Below are positions 24,950-57,932 of a DNA stretch of 64,000 bases, one piece after another. Positions within the stretch are counted from its first letter, which is position 1; every line of letters starts with the position of its first letter. Both the position numbers and the translations under genes were made by a program. Under the pieces are notes generated by a model that searched no databases, was not told the origin of the DNA, and saw only the letters and a program-made list of their open reading frames with translations. This stretch comes from Diospyros lotus (lineage: Eukaryota; Streptophyta; Magnoliopsida; Ericales; Ebenaceae): positions 15,014,616-15,078,615 of the forward strand of contig NC_068338.1 in NCBI RefSeq assembly GCF_014633365.1, read 5' to 3'.

Positions 24950-24954
24950 CACAC
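24950..24954. repeat. Target-site duplication CACAC (left)
   Basis: Five bases CACAC directly left of the LTR at 24955, matched by CACAC at 32744-32748 directly right of the other LTR. Confidence 0.9.
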
Positions 24955-25754
24955 TGACTGCTACGCTACCCTGCACATTTATTTATCAAAACTACAACTA
25001 AATTCATCAGACGTCAATCCTTTTATTAAAGCAGGTGTAGGGCGATTATACTCGCCAGTGTGCGAGTGTGCGTGTAGTACAATTTTAAATTTATATTTCG
25101 GTAAGTCCGAGTCGGTTCACAGGGAGATTATTTATGGTTGAAAGTAAAAATCATAAAATATTTGAGTTTAGGAGGTAATTAAGATGATCTAAAGACCATA
25201 ATTAAAGCTAAACTAATACTGAATTTAAGTAGCTTGGGTCAAGATAATTTCAGTGTCAAAACCAATTAATTCCCAATTTGATAGAAAAGGTCAGCAATAT
25301 TCATCTGAATTAAGTTTTACAGCTCTGTTAGTAAATTTAGTTCAAGATAATGGTAATTCTTGTTTAAGCAATATCCATACATGGCATGGAAATTCTAAGT
25401 TAAGCAATTACCATAAATTGAACTATATTCCATAGACAGAATTTATAGATATAGATTAATCATTTAGGCTTGGGTATGAAAACGTTTCCAGATCTAGCAA
25501 TCTCCATACGTGGCATGAAAATTCTAAGTTAGGCTTATGCTCCAATCCAAACTTAAAGATACAACGCACACTGCTCAAATTAAATCAGATTAATATTACA
25601 TATTTTAAGCGCAGCTTTCTTTGGGAATCATTGGCGTTGGACACTGTCCTTGCCTTAACCCAAGAATGGATTTAGCTACTCATCTTCATTTTAAAATAAA
25701 TTGGCAGGAATTTAAATAACGAGAATTAAAAGACAGTATTTAAAAGACTATTTT

Positions 25755-25932
25755 TTAACCGACCATATAGGCGGTATATAATGAAAAGACAATAATTGAA
25801 AGACTATTTTTTAACCGACCATATAGGCGGTATGTAATTGAAAGACAATAATTGAAAGACTATTTTGAACCGACCATATAGGCGGTATGTAATTGAAAGA
25901 CTATTTTCAACCGACCATATAGGCGGTATATA
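25755..25932. repeat. Four copies of ACCGACCATATAGGCGGTAT in the LTR
   Basis: The 20-base phrase occurs four times (about 25758, 25814, 25870 and 25910), separated by AATTGAAAGACTATTTT-like spacers. The core CCG..CATATA..CGG is partly palindromic. Equivalent copies lie in the other LTR 6056 bases to the right (31811-31988). They lie downstream of the TATA box, in the transcribed part of the LTR. Confidence 0.9.
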
Positions 25933-26118
25933 ATAAAAAGACAATATGAATAACATAATACAACTATATGGAAACAAATGTTAAAGATTTAAGAGAAAAA
26001 TTCTAAGAACAAAACTATATAGAAACTAAAGTTGAAAATTTAAGAGAGAAATCTAAAGATCACAATTATACTTTCATTATAAGAAAATCCAATCCTTACA
26101 AATGCACCCTAAGTGCTC

Positions 26119-26127
26119 TATTTATAG
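26119..26127 (-). promoter_or_regulatory. TATA box in the 3' LTR
   Basis: The minus strand reads TATAAATAG, followed by AGCACTTAGGGTGC. The identical site in the 5' LTR is the functional one for the element; this copy could drive flanking sequence to the left. Confidence 0.6.
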
Positions 26128-26190
26128 GCTAGAAAATGTAATGGAAACTATTCAATTATATAATTTAATAATACAAAATATCTAATTAAT

Positions 26191-26335
26191 GATGTAAGCG
26201 ATGATGTAATTCCAACTCATGATGTAAGCGATGATATCACTCCAACCCATGATGTAAGCGATGATGTCACTCCAACCCATGATGTAAGGGATGATGTCAC
26301 TCCAACCCATGATGTAAGCGATGATGTCATCAATT
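26191..26335. repeat. 30-bp tandem repeat in the LTR (about 4.8 copies)
   Basis: Five consecutive units of the form GATGTAAGCGATGATGTCAC plus TCCAACCCAT occur with a 30-base period and few differences. The same array is in the other LTR (32247-32391). On the minus strand it lies upstream of the TATA box, in U3 where enhancer-like repeats are common in LTRs. The TGATGTCA-like units could be bZIP-type sites (inference only). Confidence 0.9.
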
Positions 26336-26343
26336 TGTGAGAC

Positions 26344-26490
26344 TTGGGCTTTTCATATTTTTGGGCTTGGGCCTTGCTTGTGTTGGGCTTGGGCTTGAAC
26401 CTTCCTTGTGTTGGGCTTGGGCTTGGGCCTTCCTTGTGTTGGGCTTGGGCTTGGGCCTTACTTGTGTTGGGCTTGGGCCTGGGCTTTCCA
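26344..26490. repeat. Short repeats of TTGGGCTTGGGC in the LTR
   Basis: Multiple copies of TTGGGCTTGGGCCTTCCTTG with a period near 30 bases. They create spurious Gly/Leu/Trp-rich open frames on the plus strand. The same array is at 32400-32546. Confidence 0.85.
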
Positions 26491-26687
26491 TATTTTTATA
26501 TTATTATATTATTATATATATTATATTTATTTTTTTTATATTTTATATATTTTATATATATTTTTATATTAATATTTTAAACATGCACAAAATCACAAAA
26601 TGCATAATAATATTCAATTTAAACTATTTTAAGATCAAAATAAGGGTGAAATTATAATAAAATTTTTACAAAATTGATCACTAATCA

Positions 26688-26698
26688 CACCCCCAACT
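26688..26698 (-). promoter_or_regulatory. Polypurine tract of the LOG-carrying element
   Basis: The minus strand reads AGTTGGGGGTG immediately before the TGATTAGTG start of the 3' LTR. A purine tract here primes plus-strand DNA synthesis in LTR retrotransposons. Confidence 0.8.
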
Positions 26699-28567
26699 TA
26701 AACATTGCTAGTCCCATAGCAATTAAACTTTACACTGGCCAGATTTATTCACAATAATCACATGAATATAAAAATTTCAAATTCAAAACGGAAATACATA
26801 GAACAGAACAAGCCATCTGTCATACAGTCGAATATTCTAAATTAGATTTCGGTCAAAGGTTATACAATCTTAGGAATGGCAATTAGGATGATCATTATTC
26901 TACCTTATTCCCTCGAAGTTTCGACTTCAAACCTTACTATGGATTTTTCCTCAAATAAAAAAAATTATTCCTCGGGTGTACACACAAGGGAGCCACCGTT
27001 TTAAGAGTAAATGTAAAACAAGTTCAAACTCGGTGTCATCCCAAATACAAAGAACGTATTTTCATGAAAGAATAGGGAATTTAACATAGCTTCATGACTG
27101 GAATAATGCCATAGATAAATAACTTCTGAATTTAAACAGAATTCTTTACTCTGAACTCGAATCCTAAGATCACATGATTTATAGCATCAAGAGGGACCAG
27201 ATTGGGTTGTAATGGGGCTATGAGGTTAATACGGGTTGTCAAAGAAAAGGGTAAAGTGTGCAAATGGTGTGTCGGGATTTTTTTTTCTCTTTTTTTTTTT
27301 TTTGACACTAATATCAAATTGGATGTATTGTTTTCTTCAGCATTTATTTTGAAACACTCGTGCTGAAAAGCTAAGAGAACTTCCATTTTTTCTTTTTTTC
27401 TTTTTTTCCTTTTCTTTCTTTTTTTTTTTTTTGTTTCTTTTTAATATGAAAGTACCGAGATAGACTGATTCCTAAAAACACACCAGGTTGGATAAACTTC
27501 ATATGGTTCTAGGTTAGACGAGGGTAATGAAAGGAATTATGCTAAGAACAGTTCAAATGGGCTAGGAAGGGGGTTAATGTAAAGAAAGAAAAAGGTTAAT
27601 AGGCCCAAATTGAAAGAAATTGATCCCCTATCATGCTTCTATAAAACGATGTTACTCAGTCAACTAATTCAGAGTTTGAAATCAGCCAAATTCATCCGCC
27701 ATCATACTAGACATTCAAAGCAAATTGATGTTTTGAAGCTATTGAAAATATGAGATCAACAATAAAGCGCATTTAGAATAAGTGTTATTTCACTCAGAAT
27801 TAATGATCATTAGGCTCAAACACTCACTCGGGTAATAGTCTCCACTTCTGTTAAGGGATCATGCAGTGTGCTAATTACCATTGCCTTTGACTTTATGACC
27901 GATAAACCAATTTCTAATTATTGAACACCCGATGCATGCAAATCACTTATTCTAATCCCACATATCTACGGTTTCAAATAAGAAATTAATGCATTCATGA
28001 TTCATACTGCAAATTCAACTGGCTATCAGTTTATAACTCCAAAGCTTTAGGGATAGCATTATTTAAAGCACGCACAATTTTTTGATTTTTAATAGGAGTA
28101 GATAAAAGTAAATAATTCACATAAAACTACAAGCATGCAGTTACAAATTCACAGTTAAACATGGACTAGATAGTTCATAAATATACCTTACTCCCTCCAA
28201 CTTGAATTGCAGTAATAAAATAGGGTTTGTTAGGAATACCTGTAACTCCACGAGTCTGTAAGTTTACTGTGAACTGCTAAATCTTCAACAAACAAGTGAG
28301 AATACCCTACATATATTTTTTATATTTTTTTTCTTTTTCACATCAAAATAAGAAAAATTCATGCAAGTCATATAATAAAGAGATGCGTCTCAAGAGTACA
28401 AAAAGTACTCCTTACTCAGCCATCTTATCATAGACTTGCCTAACAACATTCCATAATTTTTTAAAACAAAACATAAAAAAATTCATGCAAGTCAAAATAA
28501 ACAGATGCGTCTCAAGAGTACAGAAAAGTACTCCTTACTCAGCCATGTTATCATAGACTTGCTCTCC
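26699..28567. other. Non-coding interior between the LOG-like ORF and the 3' LTR
   Basis: About 1.9 kb of AT-rich sequence with two long T/pyrimidine runs on the plus strand (about 27282-27304 and 27388-27434, purine runs on the element's sense strand). There is no supportable ORF on the sense strand. The last 200 bases contain a duplicated scrap of the 181-aa ORF (listed separately). This is the element's 3' untranslated region. Confidence 0.6.
28350..28567 (-). repeat. Two tandem scraps derived from the 181-aa ORF
   Basis: The phrase ATGCGTCTCAAGAGTACA..AAAGTACTCCTTACTCAGCCAT occurs at 28383 and again at 28505 (period about 122), each preceded by AAAATTCATGCAAGTCA. A similar but longer form, GATGCGTCTCAAGAGTC...GACTCCTTACTCAGCCCAT, lies inside the 181-aa ORF at about 29572-29615. 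There it encodes part of LSKESLDDIRLTLETHPCG. The scraps look like deleted duplicates of that ORF segment placed just downstream of the LOG-like stop codon. Confidence 0.65.
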
Positions 28568-29227
28568 TTAGAGGGATAAATCTAAATTAATCGGACCCCT
28601 TTTGCGCTTGCTTCCAATTACCTTAGACCAGTCTATCCGAGGCTCGTAAGGATCATGCTGTGGAACATAAGTGTGTAATTTCTCTAGTAGCTCCTCAATG
28701 GTGGATGCGGAAATGAGAATATTTCTTGCAGAAAGAGAAATGAACTTTTGTTCCACAGCCTGATCAAGAAAAGAGAGCAACCCATCAAAAAAATGGTTAA
28801 TATTTAAAAGTCCAATGGGTTTGGTATGGAGATTGCTCTTGGCCCAGGAGATTATACAAAAGATTTCTTCAAGTGTACCAAAACCTCCTGGCAAAGCAAT
28901 GAAGGCGTCTGACTGATAAATCTTACAAGCCATGCGCTCAGACATAGAAGTCGTTCTTATAAGTTGACCTCGTGTGTACCCGGAAATCTGTGGATCAGCC
29001 AAAGGGATTGGCATAATACCTACCACATATGATTGCCCAAGATGTGCAGCCTGTGAAACACATCCATTCAATCCACGACTTCCCCCTCCATAGACCAAAT
29101 TAATTTTTCTCTCTCCCAATTTTATGCCAAGTTCGCTTGCTGCAAGTGTGTAACAAATATCGCTCCCAGGTTGAGAGCCACATAGTACACATATGGTATT
29201 GATTCGACGAACTGGCTGGCCTTCCAT
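28568..29227 (-). CDS. LOG-family cytokinin riboside 5'-monophosphate phosphoribohydrolase-like protein, retrotransposon-borne
   Basis: The ORF is a single uninterrupted 219-codon frame, close to the 210-220 residues usual for plant LOG proteins. LOG enzymes release the active cytokinin base from its nucleotide in the cytosol by cleaving ribose 5'-phosphate. Family hallmarks are in order: VLCGSQPGSDICY near residues 14-26 (nucleotide-binding loop), VYGGGSRGLNG at 45-55, Arg98 in MSERMACKI, QSDAFIALPGGFGTLEE at 105-121 including PGGxGTxxE with Glu121, and KPIGLLN near 136-142. Arg98 and Glu121 fall at the numbers of the catalytic pair known for LOG enzymes. Differences include Asn for the common Met in GGGSxGLMG and Met after the Arg where Lys is common. 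Host LOG genes have several introns; this copy has none, so it was probably captured as cDNA. It lies in sense inside the LTR element, 185 bases after the 181-aa ORF. Activity is not proven. Confidence 0.92.
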   Translation of the reverse strand: MEGQPVRRINTICVLCGSQPGSDICYTLAASELGIKLGERKINLVYGGGSRGLNGCVSQAAHLGQSYVVGIMPIPLADPQISGYTRGQLIRTTSMSERMACKIYQSDAFIALPGGFGTLEEIFCIISWAKSNLHTKPIGLLNINHFFDGLLSFLDQAVEQKFISLSARNILISASTIEELLEKLHTYVPQHDPYEPRIDWSKVIGSKRKRGPINLDLSL

Positions 29228-29412
29228 TTATGTTAGTTCTTTATGTATGCCCTAAAAGTAGAACTAGTTAAAGAGGTTTGGCAATCAAAAGTAACTACAT
29301 AGAAATTCAACAATAAATAAACATAAACAAAAATCATGCGTATATACAAGTAGTTGTAATTGTGGCTCACATCTTCCTCTGGTTTTACGTCCAGAAACGG
29401 CTTAAACACCTT

Positions 29413-29958
29413 CTATGAAGCGGGGATAGGCTTCCCATCCAATTTTCTTATAGATTGGCAAACAGGGTCAATTATAGTCAGATTCCCAAGACTATAGCGT
29501 TGGTGGTCACTTCTAAATTGGGTCCATAAAGCAAGAATTTCTCGCTGCACTATTCCACATGGATGCGTCTCAAGAGTCAATCGGATATCATCCAAAGACT
29601 CCTTACTCAGCCCATCCTTTATGAAACAAATTTTATCATCTCGATTTATGGAAGTAAACCCCACAGATTTGCATCGTGTGTTACAAGTCCATCGAGCACA
29701 TTTGTGACAACCATTTAATCTTTTCGCTCTTCTTTTTTTCGAAAAACTACTCTTTCCCAATCCTGGAAAATGCTTAAAACTAGGTGAGGTTTCGCCAAGA
29801 AATCGAACTTTTGCTTCAATTAACCAGCGAATATCCTCAGGGATATTTTTATACATCAACATTCGAAGTCTTTCACACCTAGTGGCATAAATCTTTCTTA
29901 AATCATTTTGTGGGAGAGATGGATAGTACTTGCGAATTTTCAAGAGCTGAAGATCCAT
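29413..29958 (-). CDS. Uncharacterised 181-aa Cys-cluster protein in the LOG-carrying element
   Basis: The frame is open for 181 codons from ATG at 29958 and precedes the LOG-like ORF in the same direction. I do not recognise the family. The N-terminal half is basic and probably helical (KIRKYYPSLP, then ATRCERLRMLMYKNIPEDIR). Near residues 70-85 a run of Lys/Arg (KKRRAKR) precedes CHKCARWTCNTRC, a Cys-x2-Cys-x4-Cys-x3-Cys cluster. That cluster could bind zinc but lacks the His of a retroviral CCHC knuckle. The C-terminal half is acidic to neutral (SKESLDDIRLTLETHPCG, then REILALWTQF). The basic patch next to a Cys cluster suggests nucleic-acid binding, which is inference only. Degenerate duplicates of part of it lie at 28383-28562. 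It could be a captured host gene fragment or a highly diverged gag-like protein. Confidence 0.6.
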   Translation of the reverse strand: MDLQLLKIRKYYPSLPQNDLRKIYATRCERLRMLMYKNIPEDIRWLIEAKVRFLGETSPSFKHFPGLGKSSFSKKRRAKRLNGCHKCARWTCNTRCKSVGFTSINRDDKICFIKDGLSKESLDDIRLTLETHPCGIVQREILALWTQFRSDHQRYSLGNLTIIDPVCQSIRKLDGKPIPAS

Positions 29959-30468
29959 TTTTTTAAAACAGAACTATAGTAAAAGAGAAATAAAACAAAA
30001 TTATGAATCTTACAAAAGGAACGAGAGTACCTGATCGGAGAACAACACAAAGGCGAGAAGACTGAGCTCAAAGAAGTGTGGCTTGCCTCATGCAGATACA
30101 GGTCTCTTATAGGGCTGTGCTAGTCACCATTCCAACAACCACACTTGGCTCGAGGCGTGCCACAAGTGCAGGGTCGATCACGTCTGGCGTCTCCTTTTTT
30201 CAACGTTCGGCATCTCCTTTTACAACTTTCGGCGTCTCCTTTTTCAACTTTCGGCATTTATTTTTCAACGCTAGATGTTTCTTTTTCTTTATAGGGTATT
30301 GTGTCCTTTTTCTTTATAGGGCAGTGTGATTGCACTGCCCCAGAAAAGTGGTTGCCGTCAGCGATATGTCTGTCTCCCTCTTTTCTCTATCTTTTTTTTC
30401 TTTTGTGTATATATATATATATTTATATTTATTTATTACAAAAACAAATTTTATTTTATTATATATTT
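29959..30468. other. Spacer between element ORFs with short tandem repeats
   Basis: No gene is supported. At about 30188-30285 four roughly 25-base units occur in a row, variants of TCTCCTTTTTCAACTTTCGGC(A/G)T. A second small duplication, TTTTTCTTTATAGGG, is at about 30281-30325. An (AT)n-rich tract lies at 30405-30440. Confidence 0.6.
30188..30285. repeat. Four tandem units of about 25 bp
   Basis: Units TCTCCTTTTTTCAACGTTCGGCA, TCTCCTTTTACAACTTTCGGCG and TCTCCTTTTTCAACTTTCGGCA, then a weaker TTTATTTTTCAACGCTAGATG, follow each other without spacers. Confidence 0.8.
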
Positions 30469-31032
30469 TTAAATATTTTTTAAGAGTTTTTTTCTTTTCT
30501 TCCAGTTAAGAATCAAATAAGTGGTTGCCCACCTATTCGTATAATAACTCCCATTCATTACACCACGTTTAAAGTTATTTTCAAAATTATGTAAATTGAT
30601 TTTTCTCATAAATGCACATACATATTTTGAAAATATGTCATCCGGAGGTGTTGGCTTTATTACATCAGAGTACGACACATCAATTCGCACAAACACTTCA
30701 CACATGTCTGGTTTAATTTGATCCCCAATAATATAAACTAGCCTAAAAGACATAAATTTAGGCTCAAGTTTGGCTAGGCCCATGGTATCTTCACATTTGG
30801 GCTCTTGGGTTTTATCCTTTTCTTTCTCCCAAGCTTCTTCTTTTCTCACATCATTTTGGCCCAATTTTTCTTCTATGATTGCTCGTACCATCCTAGGGTC
30901 ATCAAGTCTCTCAATTGATTCATCATTCCTAGGGATGGGTATAGATTGGACCGACTCTTGACCTATGGGTGCATTGAATGACGATTCCTCCCCAAGACGG
31001 CGCCAAAAACTGACTGCTACGCTACCCTGCAC
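30469..31032 (-). CDS. Unknown 187-codon ORF spanning the primer-binding site
   Basis: This is the first open frame of the element. Its first ATG is at 31032, inside the U5 end of the 5' LTR. It reads through the primer-binding site, producing the peptide FWRRLGEES, which is just the PBS translated. The next in-frame Met, in DDPRMVRAIIEEK (about residue 48), may be the real start. The middle is charged (KEEAWEKEKDKTQ). The C-terminal third (VYIIGDQIKPDMCEVFVRIDVSYSDV, split here, then KYVCAFMRKINL) looks like folded protein but matches no family I know. It shows no gag major-homology or zinc-knuckle pattern. Its position would suit a gag relic or a captured fragment. Confidence 0.4.
   Translation of the reverse strand: MQGSVAVSFWRRLGEESSFNAPIGQESVQSIPIPRNDESIERLDDPRMVRAIIEEKLGQNDVRKEEAWEKEKDKTQEPKCEDTMGLAKLEPKFMSFRLVYIIGDQIKPDMCEVFVRIDVSYSDVIKPTPPDDIFSKYVCAFMRKINLHNFENNFKRGVMNGSYYTNRWATTYLILNWKKRKKLLKNI
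30988..31005 (-). promoter_or_regulatory. Primer-binding site (tRNA-Asp type)
   Basis: The minus strand reads TGGCGCCGTCTTGGGGAG, five bases after the LTR end. The first nine bases and the later GGGGA match the complement of the 3' end of plant tRNA-Asp (TGGCGCCGTTGCCGGGGA), with mismatches in the middle. It primes minus-strand DNA synthesis. Confidence 0.8.
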
Positions 31033-32743
31033 ATTTATTTATCAAAACTACAACTAAATTCATCAGACGTCAATCCTTTTATTAAAGCAGGTGTAGGGCG
31101 ATTATACTCGCCAGTGTGCGAGTGTGCGTGTAGTACAATTTTAAATTTATATTTCGGTAAGTCCGAGTCGGTTCACAGGGAGATTATTTATGGTTGAAAG
31201 TAAAAATCATAAAATATTTGAGTTTAGGAGGTAATTAAGATGATCTAAAGACCATAATTAAAGCTAAACTAATACTGAATTTAAGTAGCTTGGGTCAAGA
31301 TAATTTCAGTGTCAAAACTAATTAATTCCCAATTTGATAGAAAAGGTCAGCAATATTCATCTGAATTAAGTTTTACAGCTCTGTTAGTAAATTTAGTTCA
31401 AGATAATGGTAATTCTTGTTTAAGCAATATCCATACATGGCATGGAAATTCTAAGTTAAGCAATTACCATAAATTGAACTATATTCCATAGACAGAATTT
31501 ATAGATATAGATTAATCATTTAAGCTTGGGTATGAAAACGTTTCCAGATCTAGCAATCTCCATACGTGGCATGAAAATTCTAAGTTAGGCTTATGCTCCA
31601 ATCCAAACTTAAAGATACAACGCACACTGCTCAAATTAAATCAGATTAATATTACATATTTTAAGCGCAGCTTTCTTTGGGAATCATTGGCGTTGGACAC
31701 TGTCCTTGCCTTAACCCAAGAATAGATTTAGCTACTCATCTTCATTTTAAAATAAATTGGCAGGAATTTAAATAACGAGAATTAAAAGACAGTATTTAAA
31801 AGACTATTTTTTAACCGACCATATAGGCGGTATATAATGAAAAGACAATAATTGAAAGACTATTTTTTAACCGACCATATAGGCGGTATGTAATTGAAAG
31901 ACAATAATTGAAAGACTATTTTGAACCGACCATATAGGCGGTATGTAATTGAAAGACTATTTTCAACCGACCATATAGGCGGTATATAATAAAAAGACAA
32001 TATGAATAACATAATACAACTATATGGAAACAAATGTTAAAGATTTAAGAGAAAAATTCTAAGAACAAAACTATATAGAAACTAAAGTTGAAAATTTAAG
32101 AGAGAAATCTAAAGATCACAATTATACTTTCATTATAAGAAAATCCAATCCTTACAAATGCACCCTAAGTGCTCTATTTATAGGCTAGAAAATGTAATGG
32201 AAACTATTCAATTATATAATTTAATAATATAAAATATCTAATTAATGATGTAAGCGATGATGTAATTCCAACTCATGATGTAAGCGATGATATCACTCCA
32301 ACCCATGATGTAAGCGATGATGTCACTCCAACCCATGATGTAAGGGATGATGTCACTCCAACCCATGATGTAAGCGATGATGTCATCAATTTGTGAGACT
32401 TGGGCTTTTCATATTTTTGGGCTTGGGCCTTGCTTGTGTTGGGCTTGGGCTTGAACCTTCCTTGTGTTGGGCTTGGGCTTGGGCCTTCCTTGTGTTGGGC
32501 TTGGGCTTGGGCCTTACTTGTGTTGGGCTTGGGCCTGGGCTTTCCATATTTTTATATTATTATATTATTATATATATTATATTTATTTTTTTTATATTTT
32601 ATATATTTTATATATATTTTTATATTAATATTTTAAACATGCACAAAATCACAAAATGCATAATAATATTCAATTTAAACTATTTTAAGATCAAAATAAG
32701 GGTGAAATTATAATAAAATTTTTACAAAATTGATCACTAATCA
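31011..32743 (-). repeat. 5' LTR of the LOG-carrying element
   Basis: 1733 bp, TGATTAGTG at its start on the minus strand (32743) and GCAGTCA at its end (31011). It carries the same three tandem-repeat families as the left LTR. At all four variable sites it has T or A where the other LTR has C or G. Confidence 0.95.
32175..32183 (-). promoter_or_regulatory. TATA box of the 5' LTR
   Basis: TATAAATAG on the minus strand, downstream of the 30-bp repeat array. A start site about 30 bases on would leave roughly 1.1 kb of R-U5 leader before the primer-binding site. This promoter is the likely driver of the LOG-like and unknown ORFs. Confidence 0.6.
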
Positions 32744-32748
32744 CACAC
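32744..32748. repeat. Target-site duplication CACAC (right)
   Basis: Perfect match to 24950-24954. Confidence 0.9.
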
Positions 32749-34860: not shown

Positions 34861-37800
34861 CTGTATGAGGGTAGAAAAGAAGAAAAAGAAAGGAAAGACC
34901 AGCAAGATAAGGACCAGGCAAAGAAAATGGCAGATGTGTAACAGCAAGATCAACTTCGAGTAATCTAAGAGCAAAAATTGTTCTTTAAAGCACTTTAGTG
35001 CCTTAAACTTCAAGATCAGATTGAATGCCTATCAAAATTACTCAAACGATTAAGGATGTTCTGGTGCATGAGACTCGCCGTTTTGCGAGGTTGAGAGAGG
35101 GTTATTTTAATATGCAGCTTTGCCCTTGCTTCGTATTTCCACAACACAAACCCATGACATTCCAGTTATATAGGAGCAACCTTACCATTGCTACCAAAGC
35201 TCACTCTCTATTCTCATAAAAAAGAAATTAAATGCAATATTCTCATGTTTTAAGCATAAGTAGGGAGAAGATATAAATCTTCAAAATGACTGCTTCTGGT
35301 TTGCTTACTCAAGCCTGCAAACTATGGACTACTGAATTTCAATTTATTTTCAACTCTGAAAGTCCAGATTTTTAATGTTATGTAACTGATAAAACCTGAA
35401 CAATTAGCATACATTTTCCTCAAACCTGCAAACCATAGACTACTGAATTTCAATTTACTTTCAACTATGAGAATCCAAACTTTTAATGTGCACCAGCTCT
35501 TCCCAAAGAAGAAAAAAAGGCATAATAAAGCTGAAAATATAGAAAAGGAAAAGGCCAGATAACTACCAGATTGGGAAATGGCTCTATTTCTAGATTATAT
35601 GGAGCCTTGACTTGCACTCAGATTGACATCTACAAAAGAGCAAGAGCTGTCAAAATTTAAGATACTAACCTCTTCTGTGCGACTAATGGCAAAACCAAGC
35701 TTTGTGTCAGTTTCTTTTAGTTTAATCTCTACAGAAACCTCTCCTCCAAGAGGAGAATACCAAAGGCGAACTGCTCTGACTACTCCAATGTCAACCCCAT
35801 GGTAATCCTCGAAACCATATAGGCTTGTATTTGCAAGATTTGACAGATCAGACAATGACCCAGCATTTACAGTAGAAGAAGCTGTCTCCCCTGATATCTG
35901 CAGTAACATGAAAAATGACACAGAGCAAAGTCTCAAATTTTATGAGCAGTTAGTTCCTCGTACAGAGGAAACTAACAAATATAACCACATCTAGGTTAAT
36001 GTGCATTCATCTGCAATAAATTCTTCACTTGTTTAATGATCTCTTAAAAGTATGCATAAAAAGTTACACATAAAATATTACATATACTTCTAGTTCTGCC
36101 AAGTAACATATCTGATGAAAAACTATGGTTGCACTTTGAAGCATGCCAGAAAAGAATCACACTTCATACTGCCAGTAGAATGATTGAATTAAGAAATGAA
36201 GCAATGATTTTGATAGGATACGGACAAATGGACGCTAATACTGCTGATGATATATTGGAAAAGGAACCTCCATTTAAAATGTTTAATACTATTTGAACAA
36301 AAACAACCTCAGGTTGAAAAAGAAGTGCTCGGGTACCTGTAAATGTTATACCTGAGAGCTTAGAAAGAGTAAGGAGGAAACTTGAATAAAATGAGGACTA
36401 TTTTCCTGCCATTCCTTGATCTCAAGTGGGGTATTTATGCATAAGTACATTTCAATCTCTTCTTAAAATACAGGAATACATGATAAATGAAATCAAACAA
36501 TTTTAAACTTGATTTTTTCTGATAGGATTATCTATGTAATCTCCTTCTTAGTGCTTTATCGTCTCATCCCTTATCTCTTTTTAACTTGAAACTTTATCCT
36601 CAACAACCTGATCTCAAACCAAGCTTTATTTTCTAATCTCTTATCTCTTTTAATTTGAAATTTTATCCCCAACAACCTGATCTCAAACCAAGCTTTATCT
36701 TCTCATCTTTCATCTCTTTTAACTTAGAAATACCCTAACAACCCTAACTCTTAATTTTCAGCCATCAATGACTCATTTTCCCGATTTTTCCAACACTTCT
36801 CCTTAAGGTGGTGAATAGAAATCAATCATTCTCAGCTTGCCAACTAAGAACTCCAACGCTGGTTTGGATAGGGCTTTGGTAAGAATGTTAGCTTCCTGAT
36901 CTTTCATAGAGACATAGGATAGGTTAAACACCTCTGAGTCCATCTCATGTTTGATGAAATATCTGTCAATACACACATACTTCATCCGGTCATGTTATAT
37001 TAGGTTGTGAACTATGTTTATTGCTGATTTGTTGTCACTGTACAGCTTCATAGGATTTGTTCTAAGTATATTTAGATCCCATAGAAATTTCTCAATCTCT
37101 CGATATTCTGCTTCAGCACTGTTTCTTGTCACGACAAATTGCTTCTTACTCCTCCATGTCACAAGATTCCCCCATAACCTAGTGCAGTACCCAATTGTAG
37201 ATTTGTTATCTTCCATAGACCCAGCCCAATTTGCATCTACATACCCTTCTATATCTCTATTGTCACTCTTCTTAAACAAAATTCATTTTCCTAGAGTCCC
37301 TTTGAGATACTTTAAAACATGGTTAGCTGCTTCAAGATGTTGCTTTGCAGGTGCATGCATAAATTGGCTAATAACACTAACACTAAAAGCAATATCAAGC
37401 CTTGTGAGAGATAGATATATTAGCTTACCTACCAGCTGTTGGTATTGTTCACGGTCTACTAATGGATCATTCTTGATGGCCTTCTGCCTCCAATTTCTCT
37501 CCAAAGGAGTGCCGGTTAGTTTACATCCAAGTTTTCCTATTTCTTTTAGCAGATCTAGGACATATTTCCTTTGAGTAACAAATATTCCATGTTTGTTTCG
37601 AGCTATTTCCATACTGAGAAAATATTTAAGAGTACTAAGATCTTTAACCTGAAATTGATCTTTCAAGTGAGTCTTTAATGCTACAATTTCTTGATAATCA
37701 TCACTTGTAATTACAATGTCATCCGTGTACACAATTAGGATAGTTCTTTTCCCATTTGTTGATTGTTTTGTGAACAATGTGTGATCAGCTTGTCCCTGAA

Positions 37801-40800
37801 TATATCCGAAGCCCTTTAAAGCAGTGCTAAATCTAGTAAACATGCTCTAAAAGATTGTTTTAATCCATAAAGTGATTTCTTAAATTTGCATACCATGTTA
37901 TCACCTTCTTCAAATCCAAACGGCATTCTCATAAACACTTCTTCCTCTAGGTTTCCATTTAGAAATGCATTCTTGATGTTCATTTGATAAAGTTCCCAGT
38001 CCAGATTAACTACAAGAGATAAAAGTACCTTAATTGAATTCATCTTGGCTACTGGTGCAAACATTTCTTCATAATCAATCCCATATGTTTGGGTGTATCC
38101 TTGAGCTACCAATCTTACTTTGTATCTCTCAATCTCCCCATCAGGCTTGAACTTTACAGAGAATATCCATTTACAACCCACAATTTTCTTTCCTTGGGGA
38201 AAATCAACCACTTCCCATGTTTTATTTTTCGAAAGTGCTCTCATCTCTTCATCCATAGCAACTTTCCACTTGGGATCTTGTAAGGCTTCTTGAATGTCCT
38301 TTGGAATCTCCACAATATCCGTACTTGCAACAAATGCCCTGTATTGATTAGACAATTTAGTGCAAGTTAAATTATTTGATATAGGATATTGAGTGCATGA
38401 CCTTACTCCTTTCCTAAGAGCAATTGGAAGGTTTAAGTCTTCAACCATCATAACCTTGTTTGTGGGTTCCGAACTATGCCTTGGTTCAAACAACTGTACA
38501 ACTTGGGAATCTTTTGGTCTCCTCAAATAAACCTTAGTTGGAAGCGAAATGGGTAGAGATATAGAAGGATCCCAATAGTTATCTTCACTTACCTTCTCCC
38601 CCTGAAGAGTATAGGGAAAAAAGATTTGGTTTTCACAAAAGGTAACATCATATGTAACATAGAATTTGATTGAGGAAGGGTTGTAGCATTTGTACCCTTT
38701 GGTAGTTGCTAAATATCCCACAAACACACATTTAATAGCTCTAGAATCAAATTTGACCTTCTAAGGCTGCTGGTCATGAACATAGACAATACAACCAAAA
38801 ATACGTGGAGATAATGAGTTATGCAACTGGATGTGTGGGAAGGTATCAAGCAGGCAGCTAAAAGGAGTATGGAGGTTAAGGGCTTTTTAGGGTAATTAGT
38901 TGATAAGATAGGCCACAGTTAAAATTGCTCCCCCCTAAAATGAATTAGGTACATGGCTAGCAAACATAAGGGATCAAGCTACTTCTAGTAGATGTTTATT
39001 CTTTCTTTTAGTAGGGTGTGTAAGGGCAAGAGCTTTGATGAAATATACCTTGATCAATAAGATATTGGTTCAAGTCATTTGTAAAATATTCTCTCCCACT
39101 ATCAGTGCGCAAGATTTGGATGTTGGTTTGAAAGACATTGATAACATGTTTATGAAATTGCTTGTCTCAGATTTTTCTTTCATAAGGTACACCCAACATA
39201 TACAAGTGTGGTCATCAATAAAGTTAATAAACCTTTTAGATCCTGTTAAGGAAGAAGAACGAGAAGGACCCCAAATGTCACTATGTATGAGATGAAATGG
39301 CTTTGACATGTAATATGGATGAGGAGGATAAGTGTTTTTGGTTTGTTTAGCATAGATACTATGTAGAGAAGGATCTTTATTGCTAAACAACTTTGGATAC
39401 AATGATTTAAGGTAAAAAAAAAAAACGAGGATGGCCCAAGCGTTTATGCCAAAGCATTATTTTCTAAATGAGAAGAAACTGACAAGGAAGTATTTTTAGG
39501 TAATGGAATAGAGGTAGAACTAGCACTGTTGAGAATGTAGAGACCATTTTTCTCCCTAACACAGCCAATTGTCTGTCCAAAGACAGGTCCTGAAACACAC
39601 AAAGAAAAGGAAAGAAGATTATTGCACAATTTTGGTCTCTTGAGAGCTTACTAATGGATACAAGGTTGCAATTCAATTTTGGAACATAAAGGACAAAATT
39701 TAATCTTAAGCTAGACACATCAATTGACCCACTACTTTTGAAATTGTGTCATCTGCCATTGTGATTTCAATATCAGCATCAAATTTTTCATAGGTTAAAA
39801 AATTAGTTTGGTTTCCAGTCATATGATTTGGTGCACCACTATCAATAATACACCCTTCATCAATATAGCCATTTGTAAGACACGGAATTTTGGTGTTACC
39901 TTTATGAGCAACAGTTGTCATAGAGGATGCCGCATCTGCTTCTTTAAGTAGTTGTTGATTGTTCAATAGTTTCTATAAAAAAAATTTATGTTCAACAGAT
40001 AAATTTAGATTACCAAATTTGTCTCTGTCATTGGTTGATTCAATGGTAAGGGAAAATTGGGCTCACGATTTGTCTCCCGTTGGTTACGTGGTTTCCACTC
40101 AGCTAGTTTGCCGTGTAGTTTCCAACATGTCTCCTTGGTATGGTTGGGCTTATTACAATGACTGCACCATTGTTGTTCCTTTCCAACCTTCTGATTGTGT
40201 TGATGTGATATTGGTGGCCTATTCTAATGGGTTGTCAAGGTAGATAAAGAGGAGTCCAATTCAGTAGAGGAGCTGGTAAGCATCACTCTTCTTCGACTCT
40301 CCTATCTTTTTACCTTTGCAAAGACTTCACAACTTAGTACTTAATAACCTGTCGCGTACCTCGTCCAAGTCCATGTTTAATTTGAGAAGGAATTCAAAAA
40401 TCCACTCTTTTTCAAGCAATTGTGTGAACTTGACACCATCTTCAGGACAGTTCCAATCCATATTGTAAAACAAATTCATCTCCTGCCATAATTCAATCAA
40501 TGAATTATAGTATTCAGTGACTAATTTGTGGCCTTGTCGAGTATCTCAAATTTCGGATCGCACTTCAAAACATTGTGAAGTGTTTCTCAAGTCAGAGTAG
40601 ATCTCTTGGATAGCCTCCCATATGTCTTTGGCTGTTTTGTAAAATAAGTAGGTTCTCCCAATCTTAGGTTCCATGGAGTTGATCAACCACGTCATCACAA
40701 TGGAATTTTCTGCATCCCAAGTCTCATAGGTCAAAGCTCTTGAGGCAAGTTTTAGAATGGCATTGGTGACATACTCAGCCTTGCCTTTCCCTTTGAGGAC

Positions 40801-43800
40801 AAGGAAAACGGATTGGAACCATTCTCTGAAATTGGTTCCATTCAACTTATGTTGAGTGATTTGGAGGGAGTCATTATCAAGAGAGGAGGGCTAGATAGAG
40901 TTTGGAATGGATGAAGGGTTTTCCTTGTGAGATGTGGATGAAGAGGAGTTGGTCACAGCAAGATTGGTCGTAGCCATCGCTTGCTCTGATATCATGAACA
41001 AAAACAACTTGAGGTTGAAAAAGAAGTGCTCGAGTACCTGTAAATGTTATACCTGAGAGCTTAGAAAGAGTAAGGAGGAAACTTGAATAAAATGAGGACT
41101 ATTTTCCTACCATTCCTTGATCTTAAGTAGGGTATTTATACATGAATACATAGTAATCTCTTCCTAAAATACAAGCATACATGATAAATGAAATCAAACA
41201 ACTTTGAACTTGATTTTTTTTTTATAGGATTATCTATGTAATATCCTTCTTTCTTGGTGCTTTATCTTCTCATCTCTTATCTCTTTTAACTTGAAACTTT
41301 ATCCCCAACAACCTGATCTCAAACCAAGCTTTATCTTCTCATCTCTTATCTCTTTTAATTTGAAACTTTATCCCCAACAACCTGATCTCAAACCAAGCTT
41401 TATCTTCTCAACTCTTATCTCTTTTAACTTTGAAATACCCTAACAACCCCACCTCTTAATTTTCGGCCATCAAGGACTCATTTTCCCGATTTTCCCAACA
41501 CTATTCGATAAACAAGCTAAACGCCACAACTAGTCAAGCTTGCTTCAAAACAGAAAGACCATAGATTATGTGATACTCTGTCCTTCATTGCACTTCATTG
41601 TCCATTTATACACTATAGACTTAGACTTGGCTGAAATCTCAAAACTTTTTTGCACTTTGTGCTATTCCATAGTAAGCTACTTTGTTTTGATTATGGCAGC
41701 TAGCTACTCTAAAATTCTACAGTTGATCATCTAATCATAAATATTCTGTAACTTATCAATTAAATTTTATGAGGAAACCCTATATGTTATGGCATATAGT
41801 AAATAATAATATTAAATAACTAATAAACTTATGAGAAAACCATATTATGTGATCAATCATTAGAATCAGAAATGCAGCATACATGCACAGACAAGGGATA
41901 TAAATAATTAGCAATATTCCTTTAATAATAAATGAGGAGATCAACACTTTCTTATCAACTTAAATTAGAATGGTAAAAGTGTTCCACTGAAAATTCATTG
42001 CACTAATAATCTTAAAAGGTACACATTCATATATATATATATATATTTTCTTTTCTTTTTTTGAAGCTTATACAACTTCAGGAAAGTTTCTTCTTCACTG
42101 AAAATCAAGGATAAGATTTGCATCTGATAATTCTTGCATTTGCCAGTAAGTATTACAAGGTTGGCTGTATTAACACATACATCCATTGCATGCACATCAA
42201 TGTGAGGCCTATGTGGCCCAATTCCATAAGCATCAGCAGATAGTAGTTCAATCACCTCTAAGAAGTTAAATCGGTTTCTAAGGCATTTCTATCATAATGC
42301 TTTTGTTTTAATATTACCTTTGTAAGCAGGGGTTCTGTTTGAATGTTCATAAAAACAATCGGGACCCCTGATGCCTGAGAGGCACTAAGCCATGCATTTG
42401 CTCTAGCGAGGGTGTCTTCCAAATCATGGTAGCGAGAAGCACTTATGTCTGAAGCCTTTGGAAGGAGAAGCATAGAAAGAAAACAACTTGAATTGGGAAC
42501 TGGTAGCAATTCTTGCATTCTCCTCTCCCAAGGATACCCAACATAACCATCTTGAAGTTCAGCCCTGGCTAATGCATTGACTATTCTGGATGCCCTTGAA
42601 TCTACATGAATTTAGTATTCTGACATTAAAGAAAGAAGGGAGAAAAAAGATAGAAGAAAGAATATTGAAAATTTGTAAATACTGTCTGTTTCTCATGCAA
42701 AAAGAAGCTCTCCACGGTGCATTAAGCAACACAAGAGGCACCCTGCTTTGCAAGGGTCCAGGTAGGGTTGTTTTTGTACAGTCCCATCCTTGTGCAAACG
42801 CCTGTGTCTATAACTTGAACCCGTGGCCTTCTAGTCACAAAGGAGCAGTATTACCATTACTACTAACTACCAAGGCTCACCCTCATGTTTAACACTGTCA
42901 CAAAGGAGCAGCCTTACCATTACTACTAACTACCAAGGTTCACCCTCATGCTTAACACTGTACCATATAAAATTTTTAAGTGCTCATCAATACCACCTTG
43001 AGAAATGAGAAGTACCTTCAGAAATGATTAGGAGAAATAACAAAGGAGAGTTTCCAAGAATAAACTTTGACTTGCAAAACAATTTAATTTTGAGTTCAGA
43101 CAGCATCTTCCTATTGATCACTTATACCCATGCCCTAGAAAATGTTAAAGACTCTGATCAGTTATGCTATATATTCAACAGGCATGCTGGTTAGTCCTTA
43201 GCAATGGCTGCCCCAATGAACTGAAATTATGCCCAGGAACAAAACAGGCATAGATACCCATCAAATAGCAAGTGAAGAACATCTGATAAATTGCTATAAT
43301 TAGCATATTCAATGCTCCTGGAGATTAATTAGAACCAGAACCAAATCACACCTTCTGCATTACATACCATTTTGACCTTATATTCTCCGAAATAGACACA
43401 TAACCAAAAAGGGAATATTATCCCATATTAACAATTAATTTCTTAAACCAAAAACTAATCTTATACTATCCCTTTAGTAATGTAGACATTAGATCTAACC
43501 TTACGTCAGTAAATTCTTTAGATAAAATACTTTCTTTTAATTTGTCTAATCCCTGTGTAATTAAGTTTTCATTATTTAGGGATTGGATTATGTTTTTGCC
43601 AAGATTAAATGTTATATAACCTAGACTTAGGTAATTTTTGGTAGAAGTGGGTCAGATTTGAAGCGTTGCTCTAGGATCACAAAGAAAAAGTCAATCTCTG
43701 CAAATTTCAGCAGCTAACATGGCTACCACAGCATAGCCATGGTATAAAAGTTCAAAGCATGAAATGCTCTAGCTTCAACAATTATACACTATACTATAGA

Positions 43801-46800
43801 AGGCACCATACAATCCCCATGAGTAACGCCCTATCCTCCCAAGCACATTACTGTTCCAAAACCTAATAATTTTTAATTTAATTTAATTTCCTGCTAACCT
43901 GACTAGTGAAAACTTAACCATCCATGTAGCACTTTCAACCCTCCATGGGTTGTGGTTAAGTTCCATTAACCCTTAACCTCCAGCGGGTTGCACCCTTAAT
44001 TAACCGACATTGCTTCTTATTTGGTTTAAGAGTGGGTATTAGTGTAGATGCTCTAGATTCAATCAGATTGGGCATGTCATATTTATTATTGAATAAAGAG
44101 TTATTTAATTTCACAAGAAGTCGTTCTATTAGTTTTTTGTTATTATTGTAATGATCGGATGAAACTAGATAGAAGTCCATATGATAAATACTATGATTAA
44201 TCTATAAAGATGTGAGGTGATGCATCACAGTTTGTAGACATCATTAAATGTCACAAGTCGCAGCAATGTCAAAAATGGATATTGACAATTGCAGTAAGAC
44301 TTATATGTGCTATGTTTTTGCTATCTAATAGCATTGGGGGTCTCACACTATAGGCATGGGAATGCCTAGAAAAGTACATAAGTGACCAATGTTGGAGAAC
44401 GTGTCACCAGACATAACTCGCTATGAGAATTCATTTTAGTTATATGTTGATGGAATTCTCATACGAGATAAGTGTAACTAATCCTTAGACCTGAAGCTAT
44501 CACGGTCATTTCATAAGAAAATTGGTATGCTTTAACATTGTTACGATGGGCCTAGACAAAGGCTGCACATGAGTGATCGTTGGACATATCGTGAGGCTTA
44601 TGGAGATGGGTGCATAACCAAAATGGGACTTGTCTATCCCTTAAAAGAGGATGATGTATCTAAGGCGCCTTCGATGGATATTCACTTTAAATCCATGGTC
44701 ATGGTAAAAGAGATCAATAAGGAGTTATAAATTCACTTTCTATTGAGTGAGGATATTTGGAAAACCAAAGAAAACTCATGTGATCGTAATCAAACAACGC
44801 ATCGCTAGACTTGAGATCACAAAATATACATTGATAAGAAGATCGAATTACATGGTAATAATGCTCGTGAAAGGTTGTTTACGGATTATAAATCTTTCTG
44901 AATAATTGAGTAGGCATAATACCTTACTAGAGGCCAATCTTATCTTATGCGTTAATATCGACACATTGTCAACATATTCAGAAACCTAATGAGTCATACG
45001 CAAAAGGTATGGTCCCTGGCTTAAACCAGGAGAGCAGATGTATGGTTAAGTGGGACACTTTAACAAGAAATTGTGCTATCGTAGATTCTCACGAAAAAAA
45101 ATAAATAAACGTAATGACGTCGATTTGACGAGAAGTCGTCATAAAGGAAAAAAAATCCTAAAATGCCAATTGATTAAATTAGAAATAAGTTTCTAATTTA
45201 ATAATTTCCTGTATTTGTTGGAGTGACAAATAGGAAAAAAAATAAAATATATATTATTTGGACTTAAATTAATATTTGGGCTAAATAGGATATTTGGGCC
45301 AAATATTAAATTAAATATTAGTGTTCTAAAAATCGGGCTAAGCGGCCGCCTAGGCACTAGGCGGCCACTAGCCGCCCAAAAATTGCCCTAGTCGGGCCTC
45401 CTAGGCGCCGGCCCGAGTAATCGGCCGACTTGGGCACCTACCTAGGCGCCCAATTCATTGGCTTTAAATATCAGCCATTTTTAGGGTTTTTTTTGCTAAA
45501 TCATTAAATCCCAACCTCTCAGCGTCTCCCCCTCACTCTCTTCTCACCTCAACGTTGTCGTCGCCTCAACGCCGCCAAGCTTCACCGGCTCGCCAGTAGC
45601 TCATCGCCGTCGCTACGTCCAGCTCCATCCTTGTCGCCAAGCTTCATCGTCACCGCCTCTTATCCATCGCGTCCTTCTCGTCCTCGTTGCCTCAGTGTCG
45701 TCGCCGCCGCCCTCGTCCTCGCCATCGAGCTCCATCTCCGCCGCGGCAAGCTCCATCTCCGTCGTAACCTCTCTCTCTCTCTCTCTCTCTCTCTGGTTAT
45801 TGCGTTTGATGCGTTTCGGTTTCTGGTTTTTTTTATTTATTTCATTTTTCTTTTCTATTTATATATAATTATTAGATTTATATTTAGTTTTTATTATTAA
45901 TTATATATATTCTATAATATTTCCAAGAAATCCACTTAGCTACTTGCTTATAGTATTGATTGTATGACTAAATTAAAATGTTATTTATCCACTATTGATA
46001 TGTGGCTATGTGGTTTGGTCCGTTTGGATATATTATTATATAATATATGTGTAAGATTGAAAACAGAAAATTATAAGATGAGAGAGTTTCATGAAGATGA
46101 TTTCCAATCAGAAGAAGAAAAAGATGAACAAGAACTCAATGAATTTGATTTTGAGTCTGATGAAGATCATGTATTAGAAGAATATGGAGAGGAAGAAGTC
46201 CAATTAGATTGCTAGATACTTAGATTCTTCAAATATGGTTTATGTTGCATTATTGTTGCTTTTGTCTTATTGAACCTAGAACTGATCTACAACAATTTGT
46301 TTTCTCATATTTAATTCTATATTTCACTTGTCATTCCATTATTGTTGTATTATTGGTTTATGTTGCATTATTAATGCTTTTCAACTTTGATTTAATTGAA
46401 AATAACATCAAATTACATCACAAAGTTTAAAAAACAAAAAAAGTTATTTTCCTAGGCCCTGCCTAGGCGCTAGGCTCCTGCCTGGCACCCGACTAACGCC
46501 TAGCTGCTTTTAGAACACTGTTAAATATTATATTTTGACTAAATTGGATTTAGACTAAATATTTTATTTAAACTTATAATTAGATTTGGGTCATTTAACT
46601 AAGTTCCTAGTTGGACTAGGATAAAATTATTTTAATTAAGTTCCTAGTTAGACTAGGATAAAAAGGACCGACCCATATCCATTAGAGTTTAGGAAATCCT
46701 AGAAGGCCTTGCTCCTATATAAATACCCCTTTAAGGATTGCCCATATTAATGAATGTTTTGTGGTTTTTCAAGAGATGAAAAATTGCCATTCACTCTCTC

Positions 46801-57929: not shown

Positions 57930-57932
57930 GTT

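Follow-up and report, generated by a model that had tools for sequence, protein, structure and literature searches.

A 64,000-nucleotide stretch of the Diospyros lotus genome (contig NC_068338.1, positions 15,014,616 to 15,078,615), referred to here as the window, carries between its positions 24955 and 32743 a long terminal repeat (LTR) retrotransposon with two accessory genes, one encoding a virus-type cysteine-rich nucleic-acid-binding protein (NABP) and the other a protein of the LONELY GUY (LOG) family. At a probability of about 0.5, we favor the reading that this element is young, non-autonomous and derived from an Athila-like lineage, and that its two genes form a host-manipulation cassette that would not simply activate cytokinin. 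The evidence consists of the anatomy of the element, its copy number in the genome (a lower bound), its gag-pol-bearing relatives, the single group formed by the retroelement LOG proteins, the changes in their tail and pocket, and the constraint on both genes between families.

The element is read on the minus strand, and its features, in window coordinates, are as follows:

24950..24954, no strand: left target-site duplication (TSD) CACAC, the same as 32744-32748.
24955..26687, minus: 3' LTR, 1733 bp, with TG...CA ends and 4 mismatches to the other LTR.
26688..26699, minus: polypurine tract (PPT) AAGTTGGGGGTG, read directly and adjoining the 3' LTR.
28568..29227, minus: LOG open reading frame (ORF) of the retroelement (retro-LOG), 219 aa, with a LOG fold by Pfam, closest solved structure and model match.
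28571..28612, minus: C-terminal basic patch and LxLxL tail (SKRKRGPINLDLSL), of low confidence (disordered) in the structure model.
28865..28891, minus: in the LOG ORF, active-site motif PGGFGTLEE, from the sequence.
29413..29958, minus: 181-aa NABP-like ORF for a cysteine-rich nucleic-acid-binding protein of virus type, by PF05515, by PF01623 at its cut-off and by 351 homologues.
29671..29739, minus: in the NABP ORF, basic run KKRRAKR and zinc-finger-like motif CX2CX4CX3C, from a 60-sequence alignment.
30469..30891, minus: 140-aa ORF (frame open to 31038), probably what is left, in diverged form, of the gag-protease interval, by 27-31% identity to related copies and by position in the related copy L039.
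30997..31005, minus: primer binding site (PBS), first 9 nt (TGGCGCCGT), the remainder being replaced at a deletion junction, by sequence and genome search.
31011..32743, minus: 5' LTR, 1733 bp, by LTR comparison.
32744..32748, no strand: right TSD CACAC, the same as 24950-24954.

The earlier note on this DNA, made from its letters alone, had described two 1733-bp LTRs with four mismatches, a CACAC TSD and a PPT, and all of these were found in the sequence. The mismatches lie at 25263, 25467, 25668 and 26174 (two C/T, two G/A) and amount to an LTR divergence of 0.0023, which places the insertion roughly 0.09-0.23 million years ago at substitution rates that we assume to be 5e-9 to 1.3e-8 per site per year. 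The three main sense ORFs reported between the LTRs were likewise recovered (140, 181 and 219 aa, minus strand), together with two lesser ones of 84 and 79 aa, and the reported lack of gag and pol agrees with the Pfam scan, which found no such domain in the four window ORFs scanned. The element is an LTR retrotransposon with LTRs, TSD, a truncated PBS and a PPT; it lacks gag-pol domains and is non-autonomous. The 140-aa ORF was considered as a third accessory gene: it has no Pfam match, residues 18-150 of the open frame around it (189 codons) are weakly similar to related gag-pol regions (27-31% identity, E 7e-10 to 7e-5), and its counterpart in L039 consists of polyprotein codons between the gag and protease domains. 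Each LTR also contains two short tandem arrays, spaced at 30 nt and 28 nt (26151-26359 and 26333-26524 in the window), and copies of ~41 nt at irregular intervals form a third set (25738-25930).

The primer site starts with TGGCGCCGT after a 5-nt spacer from the LTR, and it is only over these first 9 nt that it matches the TGGCGCCGTTGCCGGGGAG of the related copies L039, L048, L049 and L051; that of L043 is one base off. A TGGCGCCGTTGCCGGGGAG primer site is one that we take to be of tRNA-Asp type, and both the tRNA identity and its link to Athila are presumed here. The tRNA-Asp-type PBS described earlier is present in its first 9 nt, with the tRNA type presumed, and its remainder is replaced at a deletion junction, for which the genome holds 1 exact match (0 mismatches allowed), the window itself. 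An extra deletion of ~800 nt has left the window copy with its 9-nt primer site; the full site is present in the siblings L048 and L049. The window copy can probably no longer move, a statement that applies to this copy and not to its siblings.

The genome (a 630-Mb assembly of 43 contigs) was searched with the LOG ORF as DNA query; the search gave 895 first-look candidates, and 40 of the 40 scored places match at 99-100% (rounded) over 659-660 nt, a copy number that is a lower bound. These data agree with the earlier description of a non-autonomous LTR element with an intact LOG ORF, young and present in many copies; further LOG-bearing copies exist, and the element is not a one-off capture. 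The loci L001-L038 represent 30 distinct places, in all 30 of which NABP DNA adjoins LOG, with the 181-aa NABP ORF open in 24 and the 219-aa LOG ORF open in 27. A search with P0092, a host LOG protein, yielded 1064 candidates; 150 were scored, and 143 of these were stop-free in the matched stretch. Among the 150, the 30 loci L009-L038 are retro-copies by sequence, and the other 120 were classed, unread, from frame lengths and scores.

The same gene pair also occurs beside gag-pol. L039 contains a single 1861-codon open frame with gag, protease (PR), reverse transcriptase (RT), RNase H (RH) and integrase (INT), followed by NABP and then LOG; L052 has the same gene order with gag-pol in two neighboring open stretches of 180 and 1679 codons, L051 is a second copy like L052 with identical stretch lengths, and the gag-pol-sized regions of L041 and L043 are split into four and five open stretches. 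The Pfam domain scan of gag-pol copies covered the L039 and L052 pieces, and the gag-pol side scan left out the copies on C9 (L044/L045) and on C5 at 0.97 Mb (L046/L047). The window family (A) thus seems to have lost gag-pol, being part of a lineage in which the two genes are found next to gag-pol in families B and C. The tandem order of NABP and LOG is independently supported because three Orobanche gracilis gene models (P0204, P0222 and P0236) fuse an NABP-like ORF to a LOG piece. As a separate observation, L049/L050 (C12) and L051/L052 (C7) are tandem copy pairs, apparently with a common central LTR, and the LOG and NABP ORFs are identical between the copies of the C7 pair; such pairs are consistent with unequal recombination between LTRs.

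L039 and L052 have the gypsy domain order gag-PR-RT-RH-INT, and neither a second (archaeal-type) RNase H nor a chromodomain was found by Pfam in their pieces at E up to 0.01; the former marks Tat elements and the latter chromoviruses (PMC6317226). The lineage is probably Athila-like Ty3/gypsy, an assignment made by elimination. Athila (non-chromovirus, OTA) shares the 5-bp TSD and sense extra ORFs between pol and the 3' LTR, and presumably the TGGCGCCG primer site, and Athila-type elements have sense env-like ORFs where NABP and LOG lie here (PMC7264820); the present element differs from them in that its extra ORFs are NABP and LOG and not env-like.

The 219-aa ORF had been called a complete intronless LOG-family ORF, and this is borne out by a full-length match to PF03641 (E 1.2e-32), by the PGGxGTxxE motif and by the catalytic Arg and Glu. 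Its closest solved relative is At2g37210, and its structure model (predicted local distance difference test, pLDDT, 88.6) superposes on AtLOG3 (2a33_B) with a template modeling score of 0.96 by target length and 0.77 by query length and a root-mean-square deviation of 1.2. The matches listed include relatives in at least eight named genera of eudicots, and the closest named protein among them is from Diospyros lotus (86%). Proteins of the retro-LOG group are annotated as host genes or as hypothetical proteins, for instance P0001, P0037, P0102 and many REPUB, DITRI, ACOSP7 and Peur entries, and the name LOGL10 is attached to such proteins in D. lotus and Populus trichocarpa.

The earlier note had proposed that the window element captured a host LOG mRNA, and this part is not supported: the LOG is of a retroelement-specific group that is also present in gag-pol relatives of the same genome. 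In a tree of 57 rows hand-picked from the listed matches (40 retro, 15 host and 2 bacterial, with the long gene models P0005 and P0008 trimmed to their last 190 residues), the retro-LOGs form one group with support 99/99 and the host LOGs another with 97/95, and a recent capture by the window element is rejected on this basis. It should be noted that fast evolution and long branches of the retro-LOGs could push the group outward and exaggerate its depth, and that the label retro was given by similarity, plus the NABP partner where DNA was at hand, most of the named plant proteins being placed without a view of their surroundings. A host-type LOG on C8 appears to be spliced because its motifs MHQRKAEM and KLSWEMEQ lie 1331 nt apart, compared with the 306 needed by P0092 (residues 101 and 203). 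Back-translated MHQRKAEM matches eight places, on C1, C5, C7, C8 (two), C13 and C14 (two), and the genome may thus have some eight ordinary LOG loci in addition to the retro-copies.

Active-site residues, numbered after the Corynebacterium glutamicum LOG (PMC4979012), were compared between a retro set (119 of the best 120 of 7822 matches, leaving out P0092, which is host-like; the motif is unreadable in 2) and a host set (the best 120 of 7997 P0092 matches; 1 without the motif). The catalytic residues are retained in the retro-LOGs listed (R99 in 111/117, E121 in 115/117 and E122 in 114/117), and the pocket residues are mostly replaced (K100 kept in 10/117 and E125 in 9/117), with M at the K100 position and C at the E125 position of the window ORF. 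All five residues are present in 119/119 host LOGs listed, and K100 and E125 also occur in the bacterial 5zbj and 1t35 sequences. On the tree, one change accounts for the loss of E125 and two for the loss of K100. The Xanthoceras rows and then P0041 are the earliest branches among the retro-LOGs and retain both residues (P0008 has no readable motif). This change of the adenine/prenyl pocket (Lys100, Glu125) is a warning, not proof, of altered activity, and it weakens the label "cytokinin-activating" that the gene had been given.

The window LOG ends in LDLSL, and LxLxL and DLNx(x)P are the definitions of the ethylene-responsive element binding factor-associated amphiphilic repression (EAR) motif (PMC9956375). 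Within the last 14 residues, LxLxL occurs in 95/119 retro-LOGs listed, always at the exact C-terminal end and in 78 of the 95 as LxLxLxL, where chance would give ~1.5%. Neither form was found in 120 host LOGs listed, scanned over the whole protein; this host list is mostly LOG1-type, with At2g37210 and At5g11950 as the only others and the last residues of both not displayed. Among the 24 retro rows that lack LxLxL, 14 end at or short of the tail position (P0003, P0026, P0057, P0061, P0062, P0076, P0077, P0082, P0093, P0099, P0101, P0104, P0114 and P0119), 4 are substituted in the tail (P0006, P0055, P0103 and P0120), P0032 has DLNLTP instead, and 5 have other ends (P0005, P0007, P0008, P0056 and P0069). 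The tail may predate the pocket change because P0041, which kept both pocket residues, already has it; it is absent from the Xanthoceras gene models.

A first alternative, which we regard as doubtful, is that the retro-LOG still activates cytokinin, so that the element would raise local cytokinin and cell division, perhaps reaching the meristem or germ line, with the tail tuning location only. The retained LOG fold and the catalytic counts given above are compatible with it, as is the theme of hyperplasia caused by a carlavirus cysteine-rich protein (CRP) of the family of the neighboring ORF (PMC12172455); however, about nine tenths of the retro-LOGs listed have replaced K100 and E125, which every readable host sequence listed keeps. 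K100 sits in the adenine site, and alanine changes of crucial site residues, which are not named individually in the accessible text, almost abolished activity (PMC4979012).

The other gene of the pair, the 181-aa ORF, had been counted in the earlier inventory, which identified LOG correctly and overlooked that its partner is of virus type. This ORF passes the Pfam cut-off for Viral_NABP (PF05515; E 5.4e-7, 30.2 bits against 23) and lies at the cut-off for Carla_C4 (PF01623; 20.8 or 20.9 bits against 20.9). In an alignment of the window ORF with 59 sequences chosen from the best 120 of 351 matches, KKRRAK and two cysteines are at least 90% conserved and the remaining two cysteines are invariant, the basic run preceding CX2CX4CX3C; Viral_NABP was found in 60/60 and Carla_C4 in 59/60 members at E up to 1. 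A viral fold search had named plant flexivirus proteins in 12 of its 15 top rows, all at E 0.19 or worse and from a weak model; at the head were RNA-silencing suppressors from two viruses (Fig latent virus 1 and Potato virus H) and the 15-kDa protein of Cherry mottle leaf virus. A viral-contig scan with NABP confirmed no relative. CRPs of carlaviruses and their kin suppress RNA silencing, and that of chrysanthemum virus B is a transcription factor causing hyperplasia (PMC12172455). The ORF resembles the CRP/NABP of carlaviruses, allexiviruses and kin (PF01623, PF05515) in its basic run by the zinc-finger-like motif and in passing the PF05515 cut-off, and is unlike them in being retroelement-encoded, in its 181 aa and in a conserved C-terminal segment, a comparison in which no viral sequence was aligned directly.

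The zinc-finger-like motif and basic run would also suit a role in the particle, with NABP as an extra nucleocapsid or RNA chaperone, the LOG-fold protein as a nucleotide-pool or structural factor, and no host target. Both ORFs lie where Athila-type env-like ORFs do (PMC7264820), and the non-autonomous family keeps both; we nevertheless consider this role unlikely, as the conserved C-terminal EAR-type tail has no obvious function in a particle and the gag-pol copies possess their own gag.

Selection on both ORFs, which the earlier note had proposed to measure by dN/dS (the ratio of nonsynonymous to synonymous substitution rates), was estimated between families from single pairs, with one copy per family. 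For LOG the ratio is 0.261 for A-B (36 synonymous and 36 nonsynonymous changes), 0.311 for A-C and 0.225 for B-C; for NABP it is 0.153 (39.7 and 28.3), 0.160 and 0.280, respectively. By parsimony, the A branch has 17.5 synonymous and 17.5 nonsynonymous changes in LOG (ratio 0.30; 0.299) and 24 and 13 in NABP (0.15; 0.147), and the branch values range over 0.14-0.30. These data indicate that both ORFs are under purifying selection between families. Within family A, polymorphism was counted in 28 copies of the 40 scored places, picked because their DNA resembles that of the window ORF, a choice that lowers diversity and should not favor synonymous change. LOG is open in 27/28 copies (1 stop), with 17 synonymous, 31 nonsynonymous and 1 nonsense polymorphisms and a polymorphism ratio (pN/pS) of 0.55 (p 0.057); NABP is open in 23/28 (2 with a stop, and 3 with an indel or partial, which were excluded), with 23, 29 and 2 in the 25 copies counted and a pN/pS of 0.34 (p 0.0002). 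Within family B, where changes are few, the ratios are 0.87 for LOG and 0.51 for NABP (7 distinct sequences each). That captured genes are carried without function is very improbable: the family is young, with broken copies of LOG (1/28) and NABP (5/28) and no clear constraint within family B, but a neutral passenger is contradicted by the between-family and branch ratios and by the NABP pN/pS, and both genes have relatives in several eudicots.

Under the preferred reading of a host-manipulation cassette, the lineage would carry a conserved two-gene accessory cassette 3' of pol. Gene 1 would be a homologue of the flexivirus cysteine-rich proteins, among which are silencing suppressors and one transcription factor causing hyperplasia, and its product may enter the nucleus and/or blunt silencing of the element RNA. 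Gene 2 would be an ancient LOG specific to retroelements, in which the catalytic centre is conserved, the adenine/prenyl pocket has changed and a C-terminal basic patch and EAR tail have been gained; its product is predicted to be nuclear and to recruit TOPLESS-type corepressors through the tail, with the LOG domain as a nucleotide-binding or -hydrolyzing module whose substrate is possibly no longer a cytokinin nucleotide. Together, the two proteins would render the host cell permissive for the element, akin to pathogen effectors, and the non-autonomous family, its cassette retained, would borrow gag-pol in trans. In its most specific form, which we offer tentatively, this would be an effector cassette composed of a virus-type silencing suppressor and a LOG serving as nuclear TOPLESS recruiter, with its glycosidase retargeted to another (possibly immune- or RNA-derived) nucleotide, in a family that shed gag-pol and kept the valuable cassette.

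Several points weigh against this reading. LxLxL is a short motif, and cytokinin activity could survive the pocket change, given that the prenyl pocket of the Mycobacterium marinum LOG also differs; the M. tuberculosis LOG is listed as biochemically shown (PMC4979012). The NABP fold model is poor (pLDDT 60.5), no viral fold match to it passes E 0.001, and kinship with the viral proteins carries no direction of transfer. Constraint on LOG within family A is not significant, and the within-family-B ratios of 0.87 and 0.51 come from few changes. In addition, lists of the best 120 from hundreds or thousands of matches under-represent distant members.

A LOG-type domain in plant LTR elements is already known. 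Steinbauerova et al. reportedly found it in elements called Athila-like. Consensus sequences of LTR elements from two Citrus species contain it as the YgdH domain, in agreement with Steinbauerova et al., as do Populus LTR elements with one filter off (Alvarado-Marchena et al. 2022, PMC9289625); these share with the present element a LOG-family domain inside plant LTR retrotransposons, and the accessible text is silent on an NABP neighbor, an EAR tail, changes in the pocket and tests of selection. The earlier statement that no such element was known is partly wrong, as it fails for the domain. In the literature searched, which left most subscription papers outside, no report was found of the NABP partner, tail or pocket change, nor of a single LOG group, selection or a cassette-only derivative; among the titles and abstract openings listed, nothing joined a carlavirus-type NABP with retrotransposons, and LOG with EAR/TOPLESS and LTR elements yielded only PMC9289625. 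Compared with type-I LOG proteins (cytokinin riboside 5'-monophosphate phosphoribohydrolases), the retro-LOG has the same fold, PGGxGTxxE and catalytic Arg and Glu, and is unlike them in its K100/E125 replacements, its basic and LxLxL tail, and its intronless gene where the host type is apparently spliced. The pathogen effectors HaRxL21 and Jsi1, which interact with TOPLESS according to the titles of their papers, share LxLxL with the retro-LOG, which differs in belonging to an endogenous retroelement, in its enzyme scaffold and in its TOPLESS binding being predicted. In orchids, Ty3/gypsy elements that encode an AlkB RNA demethylase (PMC9289625) similarly have a host-type accessory enzyme fixed in a retroelement lineage; the enzyme and elements are other ones, and demethylase activity is shown there, whereas the retro-LOG is known by sequence.

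Elsewhere in the window, 36294-41511 and 44077-54255 hold two older copia-type elements with RVT_2, gag and integrase ORF pieces, whose flanking direct repeats are 92-93% and 86-88% identical. A 191-codon open frame at 57360-57932 (minus strand) has no Pfam match at E 0.001 and is possibly a host-gene exon.

Extra ORFs are common in plant retrotransposons and their roles are mostly obscure; the NABP-LOG pair has a readable design, and it turns the accessory-gene question into simple assays of silencing suppression, TOPLESS binding and substrate. In addition, retro-LOGs named as host genes could inflate counts of the LOG gene family.

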